Positions 1,476-24,548 of a stretch of DNA of 54,573 bases are shown here, in pieces. Source of the stretch: Candidatus Zixiibacteriota bacterium (GTDB lineage: Bacteria; Zixibacteria; MSB-5A5; GN15; FEB-12); NCBI GenBank assembly GCA_034003725.1, contig JAVEYB010000017.1, positions 1 through 54,573 of the forward strand, in the 5' to 3' direction. The position numbers and the translations under genes are program-made. Within the stretch, counting starts at the first letter, position 1, and every line of letters begins with the position of its first letter. The notes below the pieces were generated by a model. That model searched no databases. It saw nothing but the letters and a program-made list of their open reading frames with translations, and was not told the DNA's origin.

Positions 1476-1623
1476 TTGGGTCATAATGAGTTGGCGGTTC
1501 TCGTGTCGATCTCTCGGGGGAAAAATCCGCAAAAAACTAAAAAAATAGTACAACTTTTCGGGCGGGGTCCGTATACAGGGGAAGAAATCCTAATTCCTTA
1601 AAAGTTGGCGGAAGTTTTTACGT

Positions 1624-2019
1624 ATGGCTCGTCACAAAACCCCGACTCTCACCGATGCCGAGCTGCGGATTATGAATGTGGTCTGGGATCTCGGCAGGGC
1701 GACGGTCAACAGCGTGGCCGAGGCGCAGCGGGGCTCGAAGCGCCTGGCCTACAATACGATTCTGACGATGATGCGCATTCTCGAGCAGAAGGGGTATCTT
1801 CGCCGCGAGAAGGTTGGGCGCGCACATGTCTATCTTCCGGTGGTCGATCGCTCGCAGGCGCGCACCCGTGCGATTCGGCACATGCTCAAAAGCCTCTTCA
1901 ACAACTCTCCGGAGCTGTTGATGGTCAACCTGCTGGAGAACGAAGCGTTGTCCGAGGACGATCTGGAGCGCCTTCGGCAGATGATCGACCACTCAGAAAA
2001 CACGGCCCGGCGGACATAG
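1624..2019 (+). CDS. BlaI/MecI-family transcriptional repressor
   Basis: Winged-helix repressor of 131 residues, the usual size for BlaI/MecI. The N-terminal DNA-binding part carries the family pattern LTDAELRIMNVVWDLG, then TVNSVAEA and YNTILTMMRILEQKGYL; the C-terminal part supplies the dimerisation helices. In the family the repressor is cleaved or released when a BlaR1/MecR1 sensor protease is activated. The next gene, 9 bases downstream, is exactly such an M56 protease, so the pair is very probably one regulatory operon. The upstream region is A-rich and contains GTACA (about 1548) and GTATAC (1571) elements that could be operator half-sites; that is inference. No beta-lactamase or penicillin-binding protein gene is nearby, so the regulated function is unknown. 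Confidence 0.9.
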   Translation: MARHKTPTLTDAELRIMNVVWDLGRATVNSVAEAQRGSKRLAYNTILTMMRILEQKGYLRREKVGRAHVYLPVVDRSQARTRAIRHMLKSLFNNSPELLMVNLLENEALSEDDLERLRQMIDHSENTARRT

Positions 2020-2028
2020 GAGGGGAGA

Positions 2029-4965
2029 ATGGAAGCCGTTTATCTTTCGATCACGGAGATGTCCGTTGTCTGGCTGCAGGCGATCGTGGACAGCCTCGCG
2101 CCGTCGATCGCGCTCGCTGCGCTGACCGGATTGTTGTTTCGGTACACGGAGCTGTTTAACGCCCGGGCGCGATATATCATCTGTTGGGTGGTACTGGCGA
2201 CAATCGTGCTGCTGCCGGCGGCGATGGTTGGATGGGACGCGGTTCAGGAGCGCGCCGCCGGGCGCAGTCGCAATGCAGTTTTCAGTCGCGACGCCGGTAC
2301 GCTCGATGAGAGTGTGTTCCCTGCGACGACACCGCGGTTAGCGGATGCACGGTTATCGGATGACCAGCTTCAGGTCACGACAGATGAACAGGTATCGATC
2401 CACAGGGACGGACTAACGACGTCGCCGTCGGTAGCGGCGGAGAGCGGCCGCGCGGAGCGGTCGTGGGTCGATATCGTGTACGGGCTGCTTCCGGTGGGGA
2501 TCGTGGTGTTCTGGATGACGGTCGCGGCGGCGCTGCTGGTTCGTCTGGGCGCCGCGTACTACCGTGTTCGGGTGATACTTGCGCGAAGTCTGCCTGCCGA
2601 GGATGGGCTGCACAGCCGTCTGGAGCGCTGGTGTCGGCTGACCGGCTGTCGCCGCAACGTAACGGTCCGTATCAGCGACGCGCTGTCGACACCGGCGGCG
2701 ACCGGGTTTGGTCGGGGGACGATACTGCTGCCGGAATCGCTGGTAGCGCAGTTGAGTGCGGAAGAACTTGATTCGATACTTCTCCACGAACTGGCGCACC
2801 TGCATCGCCGTGACGACTGGGCGCGGCTGGCGGAGCAGCTGGTGGTGGCTGCGGTCTTGTTCCACCCTGCGGTTTTCTGGCTGGTCAAGCAACTTGATCT
2901 GTATCGGGAGCTGGCCTGTGACGACGTGGTGGTCAATCGCCTTCGGACGCCGACCGCGTACGCGCGGACGCTGGCGAAGCTGGCAGCTATAGAGCGCGGC
3001 GGCGGGCGGCTGGCTTTGTCGTCGGGAGCCGTGCTGACGAAAAAGCACATATTCACGAGGTTTTCCATGTTGTTAAACAAGAACCGAACGGTAACGACGG
3101 GTCTGCCGAGAGTTGCGCTGACGCTGGTGATTTTCGCGATCATGGCGGGCGGGGTGTTGTTGATGCAGGCGCCGTCGGTGGTCGCGATACCGCGCGCCAC
3201 CATATCGTATGACGACCTGATCGAGCATTTTACGCCGGCATGGGCGGCGGACGAGCAGGTCGGTGAATGGACACCGGTTGCGGAACACGGCTGGGACGAG
3301 AGACAGTACGCGGCGGTGGAGGGGGATCCTCAGCCCGAGCCCCCGCGGCCGCCTGCGGCGCCGGGAGCGGCGTCGGTGAATTCTGTCCCCGTGGTTCCCT
3401 CGGTGCCGGATGTGCCCGGGGCGCCGTCGGCGCGGGCATCGTACTCGCGGCGTTCCGGGGGGGGTTTCGAGTCGCTGTTTGGATCTTTGTCTCGCGGAAT
3501 TTCATCAATCACCGACGAAGACGGAGTGACCAGGATCGTGGTCAGCGACGACAATCACCGTCTCACTATCGAGTACGCGGGTGAGATCGAGTTTACGGAC
3601 GACGATCGCGGCGTGAAGCGCATGTCGAAGGATGCGTATCTCGAGATTGAAGAGCGCAGGGGCCGCGAGCGGCAGCGGCTGGTTGTCGAGCCGACCAGTG
3701 ACGGGCTGGATTATCTGTACTATGAAAACGGCCGGTCGGCCGATTACGATGACGGAGCGCGTCAGTGGGCGGGCGACATTTTGATCGAAGCCGTACGGTC
3801 GAGCGGGATCGGCGCCGAGGCGCGGGTCAAACGCATTCGAAGCGAGAAGGGCGTGTCAGGAGTGATCGACGAGATCAAGATGATCGAACCGGATTACGTC
3901 CAGCGTTTGTATGTGGAGGCGCTTCTGGAGAGCGGTCCGTTGACCGAGGCGGAGACGGCGACGCTGATCGAAACGCTATCGCGCGGTATGGAGTCGGACT
4001 ACGAGAAAGCGGAGCTGTTGATTTCGCTGGCCGCGTACGGGCAGACCGGCGCGGGCTTGTCGCGCGCGTATGCAGACGCGATTGCGACGATCGAATCCGA
4101 TTACGAGACGCGACGGGTGCTTTCGGCGACGTTGCTTCGCGACGACGTCGATCCCGAAGTGGTGTCCGACCTGTTGTTGATAGCATCGCGGATGGATTCG
4201 GATTACGAGAAAGCGGAACTGCTTATCGAGATGTCGCCGCTGGTGACGACCGATTCGGAGCACCTGAGGACGTATCTTCTGGCGGTGCGGGATATCGATT
4301 CGGATTTCGAGCAGCGGAGGGTGTTAAGCGAGATGGGTCTCCGTCGCGAGGTTGAGCCGGAACTGGCGGAGATCATACTGGGGGTCGCGGCGGAGATGGA
4401 TTCAGATTACGAGAAGGCCGAGTTGCTGATCGCGATGGCGTCTTCCGCGGGCAGCGATGACCGGCTGACGGAGATGTATATAGCGGCGGCCGACAACATA
4501 TCATCCGACTACGAACGTCGGCGGGTGCTTTCCGAGCTGACGTTGGACGACCGCACCCCCGAAGTTATTTACGAGATGGCGCTCAGGTCGATGGCGCGGA
4601 TGTCATCGGATTACGACAAGGCCGAGTACCTGATGAGTATCGCTGATGCGTGCGCACGTGACGCGGACCTGCGGCTTCGTTATGTCGATGCTCTTCGGAG
4701 TATCTCGTCGGACTATGACAAGAAGCGGGCTTTGGAGCTGGTGCTGGAAGAGGGGAAATCGGACTCGGCGTTCCTTCGCGCGACACTTCAGGCGTTACGG
4801 GAGATCGGCTCCGATTACGAGCGGGCGCAGATACTCGACGAGCTGGCATCGGCGGTTGCGCAGCAGAAGGATCTGGAAGAGGAGTATATTCAGTTGATTG
4901 AGGAGATGTCGGAGTACGAGCGTGACCGGTTGTACCGGTCATATTATCGCAGTCGGCGCGATTAG
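2029..4965 (+). CDS. BlaR1-like M56 metalloprotease with C-terminal 34-residue repeats
   Basis: Membrane sensor/protease of 978 residues, much longer than typical BlaR1/MecR1 (~600). Hydrophobic segments near residues 10-70 and 150-180 precede an M56 catalytic domain with the zinc motif HELAH (H253, E254, H257) and a downstream RELACDDVV carrying the likely third ligand E294. A further membrane segment lies near residues 355-380, followed by a Pro-rich linker. The usual penicillin-binding sensor domain is absent. In its place is a ~100-residue charged region and then nine tandem 34-residue repeats (about 655-960), each opening with SDYE or a variant. Start ATG has a GGAGGGGAG ribosome site. 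I infer proteolytic signalling through the BlaI-like partner, with the repeats as ligand- or protein-binding sensor. What it senses is unknown. Confidence 0.88.
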   Translation: MEAVYLSITEMSVVWLQAIVDSLAPSIALAALTGLLFRYTELFNARARYIICWVVLATIVLLPAAMVGWDAVQERAAGRSRNAVFSRDAGTLDESVFPATTPRLADARLSDDQLQVTTDEQVSIHRDGLTTSPSVAAESGRAERSWVDIVYGLLPVGIVVFWMTVAAALLVRLGAAYYRVRVILARSLPAEDGLHSRLERWCRLTGCRRNVTVRISDALSTPAATGFGRGTILLPESLVAQLSAEELDSILLHELAHLHRRDDWARLAEQLVVAAVLFHPAVFWLVKQLDLYRELACDDVVVNRLRTPTAYARTLAKLAAIERGGGRLALSSGAVLTKKHIFTRFSMLLNKNRTVTTGLPRVALTLVIFAIMAGGVLLMQAPSVVAIPRATISYDDLIEHFTPAWAADEQVGEWTPVAEHGWDERQYAAVEGDPQPEPPRPPAAPGAASVNSVPVVPSVPDVPGAPSARASYSRRSGGGFESLFGSLSRGISSITDEDGVTRIVVSDDNHRLTIEYAGEIEFTDDDRGVKRMSKDAYLEIEERRGRERQRLVVEPTSDGLDYLYYENGRSADYDDGARQWAGDILIEAVRSSGIGAEARVKRIRSEKGVSGVIDEIKMIEPDYVQRLYVEALLESGPLTEAETATLIETLSRGMESDYEKAELLISLAAYGQTGAGLSRAYADAIATIESDYETRRVLSATLLRDDVDPEVVSDLLLIASRMDSDYEKAELLIEMSPLVTTDSEHLRTYLLAVRDIDSDFEQRRVLSEMGLRREVEPELAEIILGVAAEMDSDYEKAELLIAMASSAGSDDRLTEMYIAAADNISSDYERRRVLSELTLDDRTPEVIYEMALRSMARMSSDYDKAEYLMSIADACARDADLRLRYVDALRSISSDYDKKRALELVLEEGKSDSAFLRATLQALREIGSDYERAQILDELASAVAQQKDLEEEYIQLIEEMSEYERDRLYRSYYRSRRD
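3991..4908 (+). repeat. nine in-phase 102-bp (34-codon) coding repeats
   Basis: Codon groups for E/D/S/G-S-D-Y/F-E/D begin at 3991, 4093, 4195, 4297, 4399, 4501, 4603, 4705 and 4807, exactly 102 bases apart with no insertion or deletion. Units 1-6 alternate strictly between a KAELL type (1, 3, 5) and an RRVLS type (2, 4, 6), giving a 204-bp higher-order period; unit 7 (KAEYL) keeps the pattern, 8 and 9 drift (KKRAL, RAQIL). A tenth degenerate start (SEYE) is at 4909. The repeats look like helical-hairpin (HEAT/TPR-like) units, but the fold is inferred. Confidence 0.95.
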
Positions 4966-6774: not shown

Positions 6775-9700
6775 TTACCGAATACTCTCTTCTTCAAACG
6801 CCGGCGTGGTGCTGACCGCAGTCGCATGGCGGCCGAAGAGGGACTTGACTCTCACGACAGCCTCGATACTGAAGGCAAAGACGAGGGGTGTCAGTACGAG
6901 TGTGAAGACTGACGAAAGTGCAAGTCCGCCCAGCACGACCGAACCCAGTCCACGGTACAATTCCGACCCTGCGCCGGGCATAATAACCAGCGGGGCCATG
7001 CCGAGGACGGAGGTGGCGGTGGACATAAAGATCGGGCGAACACGCACGCGCACGGACTCCTTGACGGCGCTTCGCGGATCGTAGCCTTCGCGCATGAGCT
7101 GCAGGGCCTGGTACACGATCAGGATCGAGTTGTTGATGACGGTTCCGATGAGGATGACAAAGCCGAGCATGGTCAGCACGTCAAGACCCTGATAGGGGTC
7201 CACAAGACGTACAGCCTGCAGGCCGAGCACGCCGCCGAAGGTGGCGAGGGGAACGGTCACGAGGATCACGATCGGATACGTGAAGGACTGGAAGAGGGCC
7301 GCCAGCAACAGGTACGTCAGGATAATGGCCATGTGAAAATTCTCCAGCAGGGCCACCCGCAGCTTGGTGAGGTCATCCGCAGCGCCCGACAACTGGATGT
7401 CATACAGGCCGCCGATTTGATTCTGGTCGCGAAGCGGCGCGACGATTTGCTCCTGAATGCGGGCGATAGCGTCCTCGAGTGAGATGTTATCCCCCAGCTG
7501 GACCAGCACAGAGACGGCACGCTGCCGCTCGACATGGTTGATGGTCACCGGTCCCTGCTTTTGCTGCACGGTGGCCAGATCGCCGAGGGTGATGACCCGT
7601 CCAGTGGGAGAGGCCAGCGGCAGTTGTTCGATATCCTGCGTATGGCGGGTCCAGTCGTCGCGGCCTTTCAGGACGAGATCGATTTCACGGCCCTGGTGGC
7701 GGTACTCGCTGACGATGGCGCCATCAACCAGCGCATTTACCTGTTGACCGATCTGCGAGGCGCTGAAACCGATATCGGCGGCGCGAACGCGGTCAGGATA
7801 GACACTAACTTCGGGATTGCCAAGGTCGAGACCGGGGATGGGCCGCGATGACGATCCCGGCAGAATCTGGCCGACCTGGCCGAAGACCTGACGGGCGATT
7901 GCAAGCACTTTGTTGAGGTCCGGACCGGTGATATCGATCTGGACCGAGCGCGTTCCGGAGAAGCTGCCCGAGAACAGCGATCGCTGGTTGGCGATGCCGA
8001 AGGCGCCTGGGATCGACTGCAGGGCCTCGTTGGCGACCGGCAGCAGTTCACGGCCGCGGGTTTCATCGCGCGACGCCATGCCGAGGAACGCCTGATTGTT
8101 GAGCGCCACGAAGAAGAAGTTGCTGAGTCCGCCTCCGGGAAGATCCTTTGCCTGATCGGCGGGGGTTTCCCAGAGATGGCTTAACCGGCCCTCGACGTCC
8201 TCGGCGATGCCGACCATTTCGTCGAGATTGTATCCCGGCGGCGGCAGGATGAAGCCGAAGATGAGATTCTCGTTACCGTTGGGCAGGTACTCGGCATCAG
8301 GCAGCATCACCCAGGTAAGTCCCATAGACACGGCGATCATGCCGACGATGGTAGCCAGCCGCCGCTGCCAGCGGGCGTTGACGTAATCCACCAGATGCGC
8401 GATATGGGCCGAGAAGCGGTCCAGCCGGGTGGTCTTGCCGTTGGTGAGTTTTGTCGAGGTCTTGAGGATACGAGACGACGCCGAGGGAATCACGGTGATC
8501 GACACGACGAGCGAGATGGCAATGGCGCTCGAAATGGCGATCGCAATGTCCCGGAACAACTGGCCGGCGCGCTCTTCGATGAACACCACGGGCAGAAACA
8601 CCGCGACGGTAGTTACCGTGGAGGCGAGCACCGCTCCCCATACTTCCTGCGTGCCGTCGACAGCCGCCTGCAGCCGCGGCTTGCCCATCTGCATGTGGCG
8701 GTAGATGTTCTCGAGCACGACGATGGAGGCGTCCACCACCATACCGACGGCGAACGCCATGCCGGCAAGCGAGATGACGTTGATCGTACGGCCCATCAGC
8801 GACATGGTGACAAAAGTCGTAATGACGGAAATCGGAATCGACAGGCCGATAATCAGAATCGATGACGCCGAGCGGAGGAAGAGAAACAGAACCAGGACCG
8901 CCAGCGCCGACCCGAGGTACAGGTTGTCGAAGACGAGGTCGATGGCGGAGTTGATATACCCCTTCTGATTGTAGACGTTGGCCATTTTGAGACCGCGGGG
9001 TTCGAGAATCTCGCGGTTGATGTTGTCCACCTGTTCGAGCAGGTTTTCGGTGACTTCGAGCACGTTGGCGCCGATCTGCCGCTGGGCATTGAGGGCCATC
9101 GACGGCCGCCCCAGATGGCGCACCTGGGCGACCGGTTTCTTGTAGGCTAAAGACACGTCCGCGATGTCGCCGATTCGGATGGGTATGCTGTTGCGAACGG
9201 TGATGACCGTTTTTTCCACCTGGTCGGGCGACTCGAAGCGGGAGATGGTCCGCACGACGTAGCGTCGTTTCCCTTCGCCGAAGTCGCCGCCGGAGATATC
9301 GAGGTTTTCGGAGCGCAGCGCGGCGATCACTTCGTTGATGGTAATGCCGGACGAGGCCAGCAGTTCCGGATCAAACGTGACATGCAGTTCCTCATCGAGG
9401 CCGCCGTACACGTTGATGGCGGCCACGCCGGTGACGCGCTCCAGGCGGGGCTTCACGATCTCGTCGACAAGCGAGAACATGTGCGGCACATACACGCCGT
9501 CGCGGGTTGCGCTGATGGTAAACCAGGCGATGACGTTTTCCATCTGACCGGACGACGTGACCACCGGCCGGTCGGCATTTTCCGGGTACTCGGGAACTTC
9601 GTTCAACTTATTGGTCACGCGGACAACGGCGCCGGTGATATCGGTTCCGACCGGGAATTCGAGGGTGATGCTGCCCTGACCGTCATCGGAAGACGAATTC

Positions 9701-9939
9701 ATCTCGACAAGACCTTCGACGGACTTCAGGTATTCTTCCTGCTTGTCGATGATTTCTTTTTCGATTTCTTCGGGCGACGCGCCGGGCCAGGAGGTCGACA
9801 CGGTGATAAACGGCTGCTCGACATCGGGGGTTAACTGGATCGGCACGCCGGTGATGGCCATGATACCTGCCAGCACGGCGATAAGGACGCCGACGGTGAC
9901 GGTCACCGGATACTGAATGGCGTTTTTGATGATATTCAC
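6775..9939 (-). CDS. RND-family efflux permease (HAE1-type)
   Basis: Inner-membrane proton-driven pump subunit of 1054 residues, normal for AcrB/MexB relatives. It opens with the expected cytoplasmic/TM1 start, has two large periplasmic loops, and the TM4 segment GMAFAVGMVVDASIVVLENI. In AcrB this segment has two adjacent Asp residues for proton relay; here it is VDA, a single Asp, as seen in several other HAE1 subgroups. The loop motif PSASSRILKTS follows TM6, and the C-terminal half repeats the fold, with TMLGFVILIGTVINNSILIV. The adaptor gene lies 15 bases upstream in the same operon. No TolC-type outer-membrane channel is in the window. Substrate cannot be told from sequence. Confidence 0.95.
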   Translation of the reverse strand: MNIIKNAIQYPVTVTVGVLIAVLAGIMAITGVPIQLTPDVEQPFITVSTSWPGASPEEIEKEIIDKQEEYLKSVEGLVEMNSSSDDGQGSITLEFPVGTDITGAVVRVTNKLNEVPEYPENADRPVVTSSGQMENVIAWFTISATRDGVYVPHMFSLVDEIVKPRLERVTGVAAINVYGGLDEELHVTFDPELLASSGITINEVIAALRSENLDISGGDFGEGKRRYVVRTISRFESPDQVEKTVITVRNSIPIRIGDIADVSLAYKKPVAQVRHLGRPSMALNAQRQIGANVLEVTENLLEQVDNINREILEPRGLKMANVYNQKGYINSAIDLVFDNLYLGSALAVLVLFLFLRSASSILIIGLSIPISVITTFVTMSLMGRTINVISLAGMAFAVGMVVDASIVVLENIYRHMQMGKPRLQAAVDGTQEVWGAVLASTVTTVAVFLPVVFIEERAGQLFRDIAIAISSAIAISLVVSITVIPSASSRILKTSTKLTNGKTTRLDRFSAHIAHLVDYVNARWQRRLATIVGMIAVSMGLTWVMLPDAEYLPNGNENLIFGFILPPPGYNLDEMVGIAEDVEGRLSHLWETPADQAKDLPGGGLSNFFFVALNNQAFLGMASRDETRGRELLPVANEALQSIPGAFGIANQRSLFSGSFSGTRSVQIDITGPDLNKVLAIARQVFGQVGQILPGSSSRPIPGLDLGNPEVSVYPDRVRAADIGFSASQIGQQVNALVDGAIVSEYRHQGREIDLVLKGRDDWTRHTQDIEQLPLASPTGRVITLGDLATVQQKQGPVTINHVERQRAVSVLVQLGDNISLEDAIARIQEQIVAPLRDQNQIGGLYDIQLSGAADDLTKLRVALLENFHMAIILTYLLLAALFQSFTYPIVILVTVPLATFGGVLGLQAVRLVDPYQGLDVLTMLGFVILIGTVINNSILIVYQALQLMREGYDPRSAVKESVRVRVRPIFMSTATSVLGMAPLVIMPGAGSELYRGLGSVVLGGLALSSVFTLVLTPLVFAFSIEAVVRVKSLFGRHATAVSTTPAFEEESIR

Positions 9940-9954
9940 GACGGCAACCTCGTG

Positions 9955-11103
9955 TTACTTCGGCTGGGCGGCGGGACGCCCGCCACCGTTGCTTGACAGT
10001 TGCACCTCGCCGTCGCCTTCGGAGCCGGGCTGGGGCTGGTCGGTTCGCACGGGGGCGCCGGGGAATATGCGTTCATTGCCGCGCACCACGACCGGCATGC
10101 CGGTCATCAGTCCTTCTCCGGCGACCGCGACCATTTTCCCGTCCGCAGACTTCACCTGCACCATAATGGGGGCAGCCTTGCCTTCGTGAACGGTGTAGAC
10201 CATCGTCATGGAACCATCGCGAACGATGGCGTCTTTCGAGACCGCGAGGCTCGTGAAGCGGTTATCGAGATTCAGGGTGGCGCGGACGAGTTTGCCTCCG
10301 GCGAGAAAGCGGTCGGCATTGGGGACCGTTATTATGACGGGGAACGTATGTGTTTCGGAGGCAGCCGAACGGGCAATACCGGTCACCTTTCCGGTGAGCG
10401 TTTCGTCCGAAATGTTGGATGCTTCGATAGTCACGGAGCTGCCGACCGACAGCTGGCCGTAGTGGCGTTCGGGCAGGTCGACGGTTACGGTGATGGAGGA
10501 CAGATCGACCATCTCGTACACGGGCGTGCCGACATTCACCCATTCTCCGACATCGACGACCCGTCGCAGGGTGTGTCCGGAGTAAGGGGCGCGGATCGTA
10601 CACTGATCCAGGTCGAGCGCCAGTTTGGCGCGCTCGGCATCGAGCTGAACGAACCGGGCTTCGGCGGAGACGGACCAGGCGCGCGCCGAGTCGATCGTGC
10701 TTTCGGGGATCAGTTTCTGTGAGAAGAGTTCCTCGGCGCGTTTGTGGTTTTGTTCGGCCAACAGCGCCTGCTGCCGGGCCTGCTCCGACTCGGCCTGTTT
10801 GGAGCGAAGAGCAAGGGCAATGCGGCTGGTGTCGATGGTGACCAGCGGCTGGCCCGCTTTGATCGGGTTGCCTTCGGCGGCGTTTATCGCGACTACGCGG
10901 CCGGCTACTTCGGAAACGATTCTGCTAGTGATCTTCGCCTCGGTGCGGCCGATCAGGGTGATCTGATCATGGAATTCGCGTTCGATCACCGGGTCGGTCA
11001 CAACGAGTGTCGGCGGCGGTCCCTGGGCGAGCAGGGGTGAGCCAACGGTCAGTGTCAGGGTGAACAGGATCGCGCGGCGGATGAGCCGAAGGGTCGGGGT
11101 CAT
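9955..11103 (-). CDS. RND efflux periplasmic adaptor subunit (membrane-fusion protein)
   Basis: A 382-residue adaptor linking the RND permease to an outer-membrane channel. The start at ATG 11103 is preferred because it follows AAAGGAATATGAGG and begins a signal peptide ending in LLAQG; a longer frame lacks one. The order is typical: barrel-sandwich/lipoyl half (VAGRVVAINAAEGNPIKAGQ), a coiled-coil hairpin rich in Ala, Glu and Gln (residues about 95-160), the second lipoyl half (CTIRAPYSGHTLRRVVDVGE), then beta-barrel and membrane-proximal domains. The C-terminus is Gln/Ser/Gly-rich. It is first in a two-gene operon with the permease. Confidence 0.94.
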   Translation of the reverse strand: MTPTLRLIRRAILFTLTLTVGSPLLAQGPPPTLVVTDPVIEREFHDQITLIGRTEAKITSRIVSEVAGRVVAINAAEGNPIKAGQPLVTIDTSRIALALRSKQAESEQARQQALLAEQNHKRAEELFSQKLIPESTIDSARAWSVSAEARFVQLDAERAKLALDLDQCTIRAPYSGHTLRRVVDVGEWVNVGTPVYEMVDLSSITVTVDLPERHYGQLSVGSSVTIEASNISDETLTGKVTGIARSAASETHTFPVIITVPNADRFLAGGKLVRATLNLDNRFTSLAVSKDAIVRDGSMTMVYTVHEGKAAPIMVQVKSADGKMVAVAGEGLMTGMPVVVRGNERIFPGAPVRTDQPQPGSEGDGEVQLSSNGGGRPAAQPK

Positions 11104-11336
11104 AACCTCATATTCCTTTTCATTGTCAGGGTATGTTCTCGTAAACGTATTTCCCTTAAACGCAGGCACGCTCAAATTGTTTACTGATTGGACCTATTTT
11201 GTCTCAAGAATGTGACATTGCTGAGGTGGCCGCCCCGGCATAAAATGGATTAATGAAATCCAAAATAGGACGAATGTCGGGATCAAAACGGCGGAGTTGC
11301 TGTTAATTGGGCACAGGAGGTCCGGGGAGATCAGAA

Positions 11337-19851: not shown

Positions 19852-19870
19852 CGGTGCGGCTACCGCACCG
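19852..19870 (-). other. hairpin at the luxC-type stop codon
   Basis: A perfect 7-bp stem CGGTGCG/CGCACCG with a 5-nt GCTAC loop spans the stop codon of the LuxC-type gene. There is no T-run, so it is more likely to set mRNA stability or reduce read-through into the last two genes of the operon than to terminate fully. Confidence 0.5.
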
Positions 19871-21074
19871 TGATATCGACCTCGCGGCAGAACTCACGGA
19901 GCAGATCGTAGCCGTCCCAGACGGCCGAAAAGGTCAGCGCCTCGCCGAACGGGACGATCCGCGAGACGCCCGCCGGGCGGGTCGTGCGCACGAAATCGGC
20001 GAGGTCGGCGCGGTTGATTCCGCAGGTGACAATGGTCTGGTCCTTGTCCCGCACGATATCGGCCAGGCGGTCGAGGCTGTCGATGCGCAGTTCGTAGAAG
20101 AGGCCGCCGCCGCACTGCAATTCACGGTTGATATCGGCCGCGCTCTGCAGTATCACCCGGTTGACGAGGCTGGTGCGGTGGCGCTCGATCGTTACGAGAT
20201 CTTTTGCGCCGATTGCGACCGAGCATTCGGCTATCAGTTTGTTGATCGCCAGCGCGGGGGCGAACCCGAGTCTCTTTTTCTCCGCGAGAGTCTCAAGCAG
20301 GGACCAGAAGACGCCGCGCGCGTCGTTCACGGTGGATTCCTCGCCGACCCAGACAACCATGCGCGGCGAGGAACACGCTTTTTGATTGAACCAGTACGAG
20401 TCGTTGTAGAATTGTTCGATCAGGCGGTCCTTGTTGTCATGGTCGAGGAAGCCCCGAGCGCCGACGAGAGCGAACGAGAACTTGTCGGCAAACACAAGCT
20501 CGGTGGCCGACGGCCCAAGCGCGACAGCGCGGATTTTTCGAATGGTTTCATCGCCGCCCCAGATGACGCGGGTGTGACAGAGCGACGAGAAATAGCCGGT
20601 GATCTCGTCGTTGTGTTCGTACCGGACAATCGCGAAGCGGTCGCGCACTTCGGTGTGTGTCGATTCGCGGGCGATTTCGTTGATGACGCCCAGCAGGATG
20701 TCGAGCTGTTCATCGGCCTGGCTGGAGACGCGCACGATGTTGATGTTGCCGACCAGCATGGACAAAAACCAGGAATAGACGAAAATCGTGTCGACATTGG
20801 CGGGCGCGATATGGAACACGACGCCTCGGCCGAGCCAGGCGCGGCTGCCGCGTTTCGATTCGAAGTCGGCCTTGAGCTTTACGATATTGCCGCGACGCAT
20901 CCAGAAGGCCATCGCCATGAGTTCCGGATACTGTTTGAAGCGCGGGTCCTTGAGGATGCGTGCCGAGACGGCGTCGACAAACGCGAGGACCGGTTCGGCG
21001 AACGGCGGTAACACGCGGCGCGACGCCAGGGTGTCGATGTCTGTGCCTTTCGGCGCAATGATTTTATACTCCAC
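19860..21074 (-). CDS. luxC-like: LuxC-type acyl-CoA/acyl-enzyme reductase
   Basis: A 404-residue reductase of the LuxC family (PF05893), which in light-emitting bacteria turns an enzyme-bound fatty acyl group into an aldehyde with NADPH. GVVFHIAPANVDTIFVYSW is the aldehyde-dehydrogenase-like nucleotide region. NQKACSSPRMVVWVG carries the active-site Cys in the same ACSSP context as LuxC. The start is taken as GTG 21074: it follows GAGGAGGCGGC and overlaps the upstream LuxE frame by 11 bases. A longer frame to 21194 begins inside luxE with composition unlike the family. It pairs with the adjacent LuxE-type gene. No luciferase genes are present. Confidence 0.88.
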   Translation of the reverse strand: MEYKIIAPKGTDIDTLASRRVLPPFAEPVLAFVDAVSARILKDPRFKQYPELMAMAFWMRRGNIVKLKADFESKRGSRAWLGRGVVFHIAPANVDTIFVYSWFLSMLVGNINIVRVSSQADEQLDILLGVINEIARESTHTEVRDRFAIVRYEHNDEITGYFSSLCHTRVIWGGDETIRKIRAVALGPSATELVFADKFSFALVGARGFLDHDNKDRLIEQFYNDSYWFNQKACSSPRMVVWVGEESTVNDARGVFWSLLETLAEKKRLGFAPALAINKLIAECSVAIGAKDLVTIERHRTSLVNRVILQSAADINRELQCGGGLFYELRIDSLDRLADIVRDKDQTIVTCGINRADLADFVRTTRPAGVSRIVPFGEALTFSAVWDGYDLLREFCREVDITVR

Positions 21075-22164
21075 GGGCAGCCGCCTCCTCGGCATAGGTA
21101 TCGCTGCAGCCGCGAATCTCCGCTTTCGGCACGCGCCCCAGCACCTCGAAGTACTTGCCCCTGCGACCGTCCGGAGAATCGTCTTCGCCGACAACTCGTC
21201 CGAGATCCTCGGTCAACAGCGCGTGGCCGGGATAACTGAGGGGCAAAATCGAGACCAGTTCGATCACTCCCTCACGACCGGCAGGCAGGACCGACCAATC
21301 GTAAGGATCGCGGATGATGATATCGGAAAAGACCGGCGTCTGGAAGTACCCGGAATCACCTTCCATGTAGATCGATCCGATCTGTTCGACCATACCGTAG
21401 AAATTGTGTATGCGGGTGATTCCGCACACGGCGCGCAGGGCCTTTTTGAAGGCGGCGTTGTCGACCGATTTGTCGGTCAGCTTCTTCCAGCCGCCGCTGT
21501 GGATCAGGACACCCCGGGTCAGGTCGATATCGGCGGATGTCGCTTTCAGTTCTTCATAGAAGTGCTGCCAGACCATAAACGTAAAGCCGAACAGCAGGAT
21601 AGGTTCATCCGGATGGGCGAGCAGGAACTTCTTGAGGTCATCGACCTTGAGCCGCATGTGGTCGTCGAGCACGTACAGATGGTCGCGGCCGAAATTGGAC
21701 AGGCCGAGTATCCCGGCACCGCGCGCCGAAAACAGCGTGCGGTCCTTGATGACGTTGGGCGTGTCGATAATGAGCATCGGCAGCCGTTTGCCCCCGATGA
21801 AGTCCTGCATGATTGCGGACAGCGCGCGGGTCTGTCGTCTCGATGTTTCCTTATCGAGGAAGATGCGCGAGACTTTCTGGCCGGTTGTGCCCGACGACGT
21901 AAGCGTTTTGATGACGTCGCCGTCGGGAATGCTTTTGAGTGCGAATTCCTTGAAAAGGCCGATCGGAAGGTACGGCATTTCTTCGACGGCAGCCCACGAC
22001 AGGCCTTTGTCTCGGTACCCGTAGGCATCGAGAATCCGGCGGTAGGGGCGGCACCGTGCGGCATGGTGGGCGGTCAACGCGTTGAGATGCTCGACCAGCA
22101 GGGCCTGCTTTTCGCGACGCGGCAGGCTGTACGGTCCGACTCCGAGCAGTTCGTCGAGTGTCAT
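21064..22164 (-). CDS. luxE-like: LuxE-type acyl-protein synthetase
   Basis: A 366-residue member of the LuxE/acyl-protein synthetase family (PF04443), which activates a fatty acid with ATP and hands it to LuxC. The adenylation motif is KTLTSSGTTGQKVSRIFLD. IHNFYGMVEQIGSIYMEGD is the family's equivalent of the YGxTE motif. ITEDLGR-like LLTEDLGRVVGED and the terminal IRGCSDTY contain the Cys that receives the acyl group in LuxE. The ATG overlaps the stop of the upstream ligase gene by 4 bases (ATGA), so the two are translationally coupled. Confidence 0.9.
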   Translation of the reverse strand: MTLDELLGVGPYSLPRREKQALLVEHLNALTAHHAARCRPYRRILDAYGYRDKGLSWAAVEEMPYLPIGLFKEFALKSIPDGDVIKTLTSSGTTGQKVSRIFLDKETSRRQTRALSAIMQDFIGGKRLPMLIIDTPNVIKDRTLFSARGAGILGLSNFGRDHLYVLDDHMRLKVDDLKKFLLAHPDEPILLFGFTFMVWQHFYEELKATSADIDLTRGVLIHSGGWKKLTDKSVDNAAFKKALRAVCGITRIHNFYGMVEQIGSIYMEGDSGYFQTPVFSDIIIRDPYDWSVLPAGREGVIELVSILPLSYPGHALLTEDLGRVVGEDDSPDGRRGKYFEVLGRVPKAEIRGCSDTYAEEAAARGV

Positions 22165-23570
22165 GGCCGCAGCATCCCTTCGAAAATCCGTTCGTACTGG
22201 ATTTTTCCCGACTCGCTTTTGAGGATCTCATCGACCGCCGCGACGCGCACCGCGGTGTGATGGAAGCCGTACTTTTTCGTGACCACGCCCTTGATTTCGC
22301 CGGCTTTGTCGTGGTCGGTGGTGGCGATACAGAGCAGATCGTCGCGGCCGCCGCAGACTGAGCTGTAACCGAGCGATTTGAGGTAGTGCTCGATCTCGTC
22401 GAGATTGACGCGGTTGCCGAAGATCTTGATGAATCGCTTCATACGGCCCGTGATGTAGAAGAAGCCATCGGCGTCAAAGCGCGCGATGTCGCCGGTGCGC
22501 AGTTCGCCGTGGAGTTCATCGTCTCGCGCGAGATCGGATTCGCTCTCGGCATATCCCATCATGACGTTGGGCCCGGAGTAGACCAGTTCACCGTCGGTGT
22601 CGGGCGTGGTGATGTCGTGCCCGGCGCTGTCGATGATCCGGAGGACGCCACCGGGGATGGCGATGCCCATGCTGGCGTACTTGTCCAGCGCCCGGTCGGG
22701 GGGAAGGTACGAGATGCGGGCGGTGGCCTCGGTCTGACCGTACATGATGAAGAACCGGATGCCGCGCTCGGCGGCAAACTCCGCGAATTCGCGCGCGTAG
22801 GTGGGCGTCAGCTTGCCGCCGGCCTGGGTCATGGTCTTGAGGCTCGGCAGGCTCATCGAGAAGAACCTGATCCGTCGCAGCATCTCATAGGTGTAGGGCA
22901 CGCCGGCGAACGAGGTCGCCTCGAGATCGCGAAACGTGTCCCAGAACGGTCGCGTAATGACAGATGCGTCAGTGAGCAGCAGGACGGCGCCGACTTTCAG
23001 GTGGCTGTTGATGACGGAAAGGCCGTACGAGTAATTCACGGGCAGCGACGTGATCGGCCGTTCGCGCGCGGAGAGGCCGAGATACTCGGCGATCGACGCG
23101 GCGTTGGCTTCGAGGTTGGCCGACGTCAGCCGGACCATCTTGGGGCTGCCGGTGCTTCCCGAGGTAGACAGCATCAGCGACAGGGCGGGGTGAATCTCAA
23201 CAGAGCGAGACGTATCACGATTCACCAACTCGTAGTTGCCGGCGGCATACGTAATGTGTCCCTCGCCGTCGGCGGGGCGCCAGATGTAGTCCGGGCGATA
23301 CAATTCGATCAGATTCGCGAGCAGGCCCGGCTCGGTGTTGGCGGCCAGCAGGACGCCGGTGTGGCCGCTTCGCACGACACCGAGGTAACCGGTCAGGGTC
23401 TCGATGTTATTGCCGCAGAGGATGAAGACCAGGCGTTTCTTGTCACCGCGCAGGTTATCGGCGAAGCGGTCGCTCGCAGTCGCCAGTTCGGCATAGGTGA
23501 TCCGTTTGCCGGCGCTGTCGATGGCCGCGGCGCTGTCGGCAAACCGGCGCAGATCATCGAAAAAACTCAA
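22161..23570 (-). CDS. AMP-forming acyl-CoA/acyl-ACP ligase
   Basis: An adenylate-forming enzyme of 469 residues, short for an acyl-CoA synthetase but with all core motifs. The P-loop is LSTSGSTGSPKMVRLTS. The aromatic/Gln motif is IMYGQTEATARISYLPP. The hinge is LRTGDIARFDADGFFYITGR, followed by MKRFIKIFGNRVNLDEIE. The C-terminal catalytic Lys lies in SESGKIQYE. It starts with TTG at 23570, which overlaps the SDR stop as TTGA; no ATG is in frame. With an ACP gene two genes upstream, the ligase may load that carrier. The acyl chain is unknown. Confidence 0.92.
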   Translation of the reverse strand: MSFFDDLRRFADSAAAIDSAGKRITYAELATASDRFADNLRGDKKRLVFILCGNNIETLTGYLGVVRSGHTGVLLAANTEPGLLANLIELYRPDYIWRPADGEGHITYAAGNYELVNRDTSRSVEIHPALSLMLSTSGSTGSPKMVRLTSANLEANAASIAEYLGLSARERPITSLPVNYSYGLSVINSHLKVGAVLLLTDASVITRPFWDTFRDLEATSFAGVPYTYEMLRRIRFFSMSLPSLKTMTQAGGKLTPTYAREFAEFAAERGIRFFIMYGQTEATARISYLPPDRALDKYASMGIAIPGGVLRIIDSAGHDITTPDTDGELVYSGPNVMMGYAESESDLARDDELHGELRTGDIARFDADGFFYITGRMKRFIKIFGNRVNLDEIEHYLKSLGYSSVCGGRDDLLCIATTDHDKAGEIKGVVTKKYGFHHTAVRVAAVDEILKSESGKIQYERIFEGMLRP

Positions 23571-24307
23571 ATCAGCATACCCCCGTCGACGCCGATAATC
23601 TGGCCGGTGATGTATCGGGAGAGATCGGAGGCGAGGAATAAGGCGCAGTCGGCGATGTCCTGCGGCGTGCCGATGCGGTTCATCTTGATGGAATCCATCC
23701 GCTCCTGGAATTTCTCCTGAGAGAGTGACCGGACCATATCGGTGTCGATGAAGCCGGGCGCGATTGCGTTGACCCGGATATTGGACGGTGCCAGTTCTTT
23801 TGCCGCCGACCGGGTGATTCCCACCACGGCGGCTTTGCTGCCGCTGTAGGCGACCTGTCCGGCGTTGCCGTTGACGCCGACAATCGAGCTGAGGTTGATG
23901 ATGGAACCCTGTTTTTGTTTCATCATCATGCGGGCCGCGTACTGCATGACGTAGATTGTGCCGAGTGCGTTGGTGGCGAACATCTGCTGTGCCGTTTGGG
24001 CGCTGAGCATCCCCAGCAGGCTGTTGTCCAGTACGCCGGCGTTGTTGACCGTTATATCGAGCTGTTTGGTGATTTTGAAGATGTGCTGGAATCCGGCTTT
24101 GACCTGCGCCGGGTCGGAGACATCAAAATAGACCGGGTGGGCGTGTACTGAGTGCCTGCCTGTCAGATCCCGGCAGATGCTGTCCAGCGATCCTTCGGTG
24201 CGCGCGTTCGCGAGGATATGCGCGCCGTTGGCGGCGAATGTTTCGATAATCGTCCGACCGATTCCGCGATTGGAACCGGTCACCAGTGCCCACTTTCCGG
24301 TCAACAT
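23567..24307 (-). CDS. FabG-like short-chain dehydrogenase (3-oxoacyl-ACP reductase type)
   Basis: An NAD(P)H-dependent SDR of 246 residues, the normal FabG size. The glycine motif is TGSNRGIG, then NNAG, the active-site Ser region IINLSSIVG, and the catalytic YSGSK (Tyr and Lys). The C-terminus GQIIGVDGGMLI is FabG-like. Start ATG 24307 lies one base after the ACP stop. The neighbouring ACP supports a 3-oxoacyl-ACP substrate, as opposed to a free sugar or alcohol. Confidence 0.93.
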   Translation of the reverse strand: MLTGKWALVTGSNRGIGRTIIETFAANGAHILANARTEGSLDSICRDLTGRHSVHAHPVYFDVSDPAQVKAGFQHIFKITKQLDITVNNAGVLDNSLLGMLSAQTAQQMFATNALGTIYVMQYAARMMMKQKQGSIINLSSIVGVNGNAGQVAYSGSKAAVVGITRSAAKELAPSNIRVNAIAPGFIDTDMVRSLSQEKFQERMDSIKMNRIGTPQDIADCALFLASDLSRYITGQIIGVDGGMLI

Positions 24308-24308
24308 G

Positions 24309-24548
24309 TTAAAACTCCACGTCGTAGCGCGCCAGGATCTTTTTGGCTTCGGCAAAGGAACTCATGTCGATGACGTCGTCGGTATCGAGCATGATGTCGA
24401 AGGCGCTATCGATTGCCGCCACGAGCGACATGTGGGCGACCGAATCCCATTCCGGGATGGAGTTGTATTCGAGGTTGTCGGCGACCCGGGCGATGTCGAT
24501 TTGAAGGGCCTCGGCGAAAACCTGTTTCAATTTTCCCGTGTTGTCCAT
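24309..24548 (-). CDS. acyl carrier protein
   Basis: A 79-residue acidic protein with the phosphopantetheine site EWDSVAHMSLV (Ser36), replacing the usual DSL with DSV. Helix I (LKQVFAEALQID) and helix III (FDIMLDTDDVIDMSSFAEAKKIL) match the ACP fold. It is a dedicated carrier, unlikely to be the housekeeping AcpP, since it is embedded in the acyl-activation operon. Start ATG 24548 is chosen because a longer frame to 24599 adds a basic non-ACP tail. Confidence 0.93.
   Translation of the reverse strand: MDNTGKLKQVFAEALQIDIARVADNLEYNSIPEWDSVAHMSLVAAIDSAFDIMLDTDDVIDMSSFAEAKKILARYDVEF

Follow-up and report, generated by a model that had tools for sequence, protein, structure and literature searches.

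The window, by which we mean the whole stretch of 54,573 nucleotides that was analysed (contig C17 of a 3.73 Mb genome, G000), carries a two-gene cassette on the plus strand. Its first gene (1624..2019) encodes a 131-residue BlaI/MecI-type repressor (PF03965, E 5e-34), which matches the solved MecI and BlaI proteins, and the second (2029..4965) encodes a 978-residue M56 receptor (PF05569, E 1.1e-28, residues 157-348). The receptor is composed of a BlaR1-type M56 core, four predicted membrane helices, a beta-domain, nine 34-residue units and two degenerate caps. A BlaI-like gene lies directly upstream of the receptor gene in every homologous locus whose contig shows that side. Downstream, no third gene is conserved among the relatives, and the neighbours vary by genus. 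In the window, a dus gene is convergent to the cassette, and beyond it, still near the cassette, are genes for an RND-type efflux pump, named from its sequence, and a HlyD-type adaptor (6775-11175, minus strand). In G056 and G057, the gene after the receptor, on the other strand (L036, L128), codes for a membrane protein that looks anti-sigma-like and is not conserved elsewhere, and in G056 it adjoins what reads as a sigma-70-like gene. Further along the window, a cluster on the minus strand (19863-24355) comprises a LuxC-type acyl-CoA reductase, a LuxE-type acyl-protein synthetase, an AMP-binding enzyme and a short-chain dehydrogenase.

Judged from its sequence, the receptor is a member of peptidase family M56. 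Its gluzincin active site (2785..2922, plus strand, as are all the following features of the cassette) is formed by HELAH (residues 253-257) and RELACDD (E294 and D298), in agreement with the HExxH...E of BlaR1. HELAH, the RRDD aspartate, E294 and D298 all align with BlaR1, the equivalent of D246 included, and no homologue with the M56 part has lost the catalytic HExxH, E or D. In a full-length model (pLDDT 75.7), the membrane and protease part matches BlaR1 (8exr_A) with an rmsd of 2.8 Å over 163 columns and a TM-score of 0.58 by target length. The hydropathy profile has four peaks at the expected places and a weaker one (residues 268-286) in the protease region. Membrane helices 1-3 (peaks at residues 13-31, 50-68 and 153-171, in line with the model) and a long, low-confidence extracytoplasmic loop are located at 2065..2550, and membrane helix 4 together with the APSVVA-IP that follows it at 3112..3192. 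This topology would place the protease in the cytoplasm and the beta-domain and solenoid in the periplasm. APSVVA-IP is a possible signal-peptidase site, and the receptors share a conserved P-S/A/V-x-A-I/L/V-P-like stretch at the end of helix 4, which fits a signal-peptidase rule. Signal peptidase also cleaves BlaR1 behind the final membrane helix (PMC9834060). We hypothesize that the module following helix 4 could be released.

The repressor aligns along its full length with MecI and BlaI, which bears out the BlaI-like partner named in the first-pass annotation and assigns the protein to the BlaI/MecI family. In this alignment N102-L103 falls opposite N101-F102 of BlaI, the bond at which BlaR1 cuts BlaI directly (PMC9834060), and is the predicted cleavage site. 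Relatives have N, S or H here, and the next residue is hydrophobic.

The nine 34-residue units occupy 3994..4911, one codon further on than the first-pass annotation had placed them (3991-4908). Its description of nine phased units free of indels and starting with SDYE or a near variant was confirmed: SDYE, SDFE or SDYD is found at residues 656, 690, 724, 758, 792, 826, 860, 894 and 928, at a spacing of exactly 34, with first letters at 3994, 4096 and so on to 4810. The alignment shows a degenerate unit 0 at the N-terminal side (3889..3993), in which PDYV at residue 621 precedes the array at a spacing of 35; most relatives have SDYV, within SDYVKR, at this place. A tenth near-motif, SEYE at residue 961 and at a spacing of 33, belongs to the capping unit SEYERDRLYRSYYRSRRD at the C-terminal end (4909..4962), which the alignment supports as well.

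At lag 68 the BLOSUM self-similarity averages 1.226, compared to 0.847 at lag 136 and 0.465 at lag 34, and the maximum over all lags in 500 shuffles was -0.12. The periodicity is far beyond chance and, as the similarity is strongest at lag 68, the 68-residue pair is the stronger period. This pair is made of an A unit (SDYEKAELLI) and a B unit (SDYExRRVLS). The alternation of KAELL and RRVLS types, noted earlier for units 1-6, extends over all nine, which read ABABABABA (permutation fraction 0.0054); for units 1-6 alone, the fraction obtained was 0.1, the lowest that six units can reach. At the DNA level the units are 29-59% identical, codon identity at identical residues is 0.49 compared to 0.45 expected from codon usage, and a DNA-level tandem repeat search reported none. 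Hence, the array has not expanded recently and is old and maintained at the protein level. At position 7, 92% of A units have Glu and 96% of B units have Arg, and these residues could make an alternating charge ladder along one face. The S..E/D pattern is present in 99% of 149 units. We take this pattern to be a helix N-capping box, and the conservation of the SDYE motif may thus be purely structural.

Structure prediction of the C-terminal part, one of the checks proposed in the first-pass annotation, gave a confident AlphaFold model (residues 490-978, pLDDT 89.9, mostly above 85 in the nine units) with nine strands followed by 24 helices, mostly one hairpin per unit. The array is confidently predicted to be a HEAT/ARM-like alpha-solenoid, with no support for a specific family. 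When the solenoid model was compared to known structures with VIA-align, HEAT/ARM solenoids ranked first (Z of 12-15, up to 14.9, at 7 Å rmsd); as Z-scores below about 13 may be uninformative for helical repeats, this likeness speaks for the fold and not for the function. A Foldseek search with the same model returned weak matches to designed repeat proteins (best E 5e-5). Among viral models, only generic solenoids were matched by structure, and a PDB sequence search with the C-terminal part gave only chance matches. Among Pfam HEAT families there was no convincing match, the best being PF13646 (HEAT_2) at E 0.012 in one of eight members. Like VPS35, PP2A PR65 and the karyopherins, which are the best structural matches, the array is a stack of antiparallel helical hairpins. 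It differs from these proteins in its strict alternation of two unit types, its S-D-Y-E cap box and its 34-residue phase without indels, as well as in its fusion to a membrane protease and its probable location outside the cytoplasm. A weak resemblance to DUF4476 (PF14771) was seen in two of eight relatives and was not significant (best E 0.05), and DUF4476 proteins were not found in 129 genomes of the phylum. The beta-domain (3496..3741, about nine strands, model pLDDT about 76-90) is without classification and had no match in Pfam when searched alone. It is present in a second copy in G019, G022 and G123.

A search with a C-terminal profile found relatives in 18 of 132 Zixibacteria genomes, which fall in five families of one class. 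Outside Zixibacteria, none was found in a low-sensitivity scan of genome contigs with a single protein as query, which could overlook distant relatives in other phyla. A record labelled Calditrichaeota (L035) is apparently the locus of G077, a genome that belongs with the family of the window. Similar M56 proteins may exist in Gemmatimonadota. Plasmid and phage records gave no match in tblastn, and the 69 pattern matches obtained from viral contigs with an alignment included no relative. In a defence-system library the receptor and the stand-alone module described below had no match, and the repressor had only weak winged-helix matches. All 17 sequences examined show the A/B alternation over the first units at least, and their last units drift. 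Complete arrays have 8 units (G019, G098 and G127), 10 units (most) or 12 units (G022 and G056), counting the C-terminal cap and, in G002 and G127, a last degenerate unit missed by the motif and added by eye. As complete arrays are always even and self-similarity peaks at lag 68, the evolving unit appears to be the 68-residue pair; the surmise of the first-pass annotation that the real unit may be a 68-residue pair of helical hairpins is thus supported. Within the window's genus, most units of one species pair with their positional counterpart in the other, and the array is thus inherited whole. It is a feature of this family, and the C-terminal part matched no known sensor domain of M56 proteins. 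No Pfam or NCBIfam family covers the solenoid array, and no description of the combination of M56, beta-domain and solenoid was found in a literature search that was weak on subscription papers.

One relative has no protease part. The protein in question, from G127 (L126, 2698-4230), is 500 residues long and comprises a signal-peptide-like N-terminus, the beta-domain and an array of eight units. A search of this genome (completeness 100) at E 0.001 gave no M56 gene. The module can therefore probably work alone and is probably exported, and sensing by an M56 protein is not its only use.

The promoter upstream of the repressor gene contains a candidate operator O1, ACTAAAAAAATAGT (1536..1549), whose pattern, ACTA-N6-TAGT, recurs at this position in 16 homologous loci. 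It overlaps the -35 region TACAAC (1549..1554; TTGAAC in many relatives), which has a conserved position 17 bp before the -10 box TATACA (1572..1577), a TATA-type box found at the same offset in relatives. A candidate second operator O2, CCTAATTCCTTAAA (1589..1602), is degenerate here. In relatives, O2 is a CTAA-N4-TTAG-like dyad 53-56 bp after the start of O1, and is near-perfect in some of them (ACTAATTTATTAGT in G013, ACTAATTCATTAGT in G035 and CCTAATTCATTAGG in G021). The promoter with its O1- and O2-like dyads, to which the repressor putatively binds, is conserved in 16 loci.

Mapping of operators, another check suggested at the outset, also showed how rare the strict site is. In all three genomes of the genus (G000, G001 and G002), ACTAWWWWWWTAGT occurs once per genome, at the cassette promoter, and the reversed-pattern control was zero. 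The operator with its -35 flank is found without a mismatch at twelve places across 132 genomes. Ten of these are upstream of a blaI gene adjoining an M56 gene of the solenoid family, and that in G013 is upstream of a blaI gene whose contig is not the one carrying the array fragment. The twelfth, in G050, was rejected as another target because it falls inside a coding frame. Two-mismatch matches away from blaI were no commoner than those of the reversed-pattern control and yielded no other operator-bearing genes. With exact matches confined to blaI promoters save for that in G050, the strict site of the repressor appears to be self-directed; since only strict patterns were searched for, other genes could be served by weaker sites.

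The cassette shares with BlaR1/MecR1 and BlaI/MecI of Staphylococcus and Bacillus licheniformis the M56 gluzincin core, four predicted membrane helices, a C-terminal part that is probably extracytoplasmic, a neighbouring repressor of the winged-helix type whose cleavage region matches, and candidate dyad operators at the promoter. The published BlaI/MecI operator core is TACA/TGTA (PMC7253601), whereas that found here is ACTA-N6-TAGT. Pairing of M56 and BlaI proteins speaks for an ordinary BlaR1-type beta-lactam sensor. However, the beta-domain and solenoid replace the penicillin-binding domain, which bears out the first-pass annotation in its claim that the repeats stand in place of that domain: the receptor has no Pfam or NCBIfam match to a transpeptidase/penicillin-binding domain (SXXK), and scores 64 bits with NCBIfam blaR1_generic, for which the cut-off is 400. 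Nor was a beta-lactamase or PBP target gene found. The earlier remark that no beta-lactamase gene is near held for the 30 further window proteins scanned, none of which matched a beta-lactamase family, and strict ACTA-N6-TAGT is present only at the cassette's own promoter. Since the searches for the penicillin-binding domain and for a target gene both came back empty, a beta-lactam receptor is a highly improbable explanation.

The most likely explanation, to which we assign a probability of roughly 55%, is that the protein is a mainly self-regulating receptor of the BlaR1 kind, which binds an envelope ligand through its extracytoplasmic solenoid. This proposal builds on the computed architecture, alternation, fold, catalytic residues and operator-like sites with their uniqueness, from which we infer the topology, repressor binding and cleavage, the class of ligand and the feedback output. 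In the resting state, a dimer of the BlaI-like protein would occupy the two operators straddling its own promoter, and the M56 protein would span the membrane, with the zinc protease on the cytoplasmic side and the beta-domain and solenoid on the periplasmic side. The superhelix of 68-residue pairs would bind an extracytoplasmic ligand, most likely an envelope protein or peptide. Binding would activate the protease, and cleavage of the repressor within the dimerisation region (N102|L103) would open the promoter, so that more receptor, and hence more periplasmic solenoid, would be made. The receptor and solenoid are themselves probably the main output, since the search of the genome turned up no further strict operator.

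The uniqueness of the strict operator and the stand-alone protein of G127 complicate a plain reading of the module as a sensor. In the main rival of the self-regulating receptor, the solenoid is an effector: the cassette keeps a periplasmic scaffold or binding protein at a constant level, and the M56/BlaI pair senses the state of this protein or of the membrane. An operator restricted to the cassette's own promoter, the lack of a conserved third gene and an exported-looking version in an M56-free genome all speak for this rival, and the conserved small residue and I/L/V-P after membrane helix 4 could allow release. However, the analogy with BlaR1 assigns the sensing to the C-terminal domain outside the cytoplasm (PMC9834060), and fusion to a receptor in almost all cases points to signalling, which makes an effector role rather unlikely. 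It is also conceivable that the beta-domain senses the signal and that the solenoid is a spacer, a dimerisation arm or an anchor, given that the beta-domain adjoins the membrane linker and is duplicated in three relatives, and that solenoid length varies. This we consider improbable, as the solenoid is conserved equally to or better than the beta-domain in the alignment and close relatives keep the identity of units at each position.

A stronger form of the self-regulating receptor, which we put forward tentatively as a possibility, is a self-contained proteolytic feedback device in which the beta-domain and solenoid are both the sensor and the regulated product, and the single genome-wide target of the repressor is its own promoter. 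If true, such a device would be a periplasmic homeostasis system and not a resistance switch. The cassette as a whole would extend the BlaR1/MecR1 principle, in which a membrane protease cuts a repressor directly, from antibiotic sensing to a different signal from the envelope that is read by a repeat solenoid. Solenoid receptors occur in a phylum known mostly from metagenomes, and their even counts and strict alternation provide a clean natural case of an array apparently evolving by whole 68-residue pairs.

The only other M56/BlaI pair of G000 is on contig C6 near 129,300, beside a divergent HlyD-like gene. Like the receptor of the window, its M56-TonB-type protein (L078, L080) has an adjacent BlaI-like gene, but its C-terminus is short and TonB-like, as read from the sequence, and has no solenoid. 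The pair has its own dyad, GCTAATTTTTTAGC (L080, 1420-1433), which differs from ACTA...TAGT at the outer base, and this base may keep the two BlaI paralogues apart.
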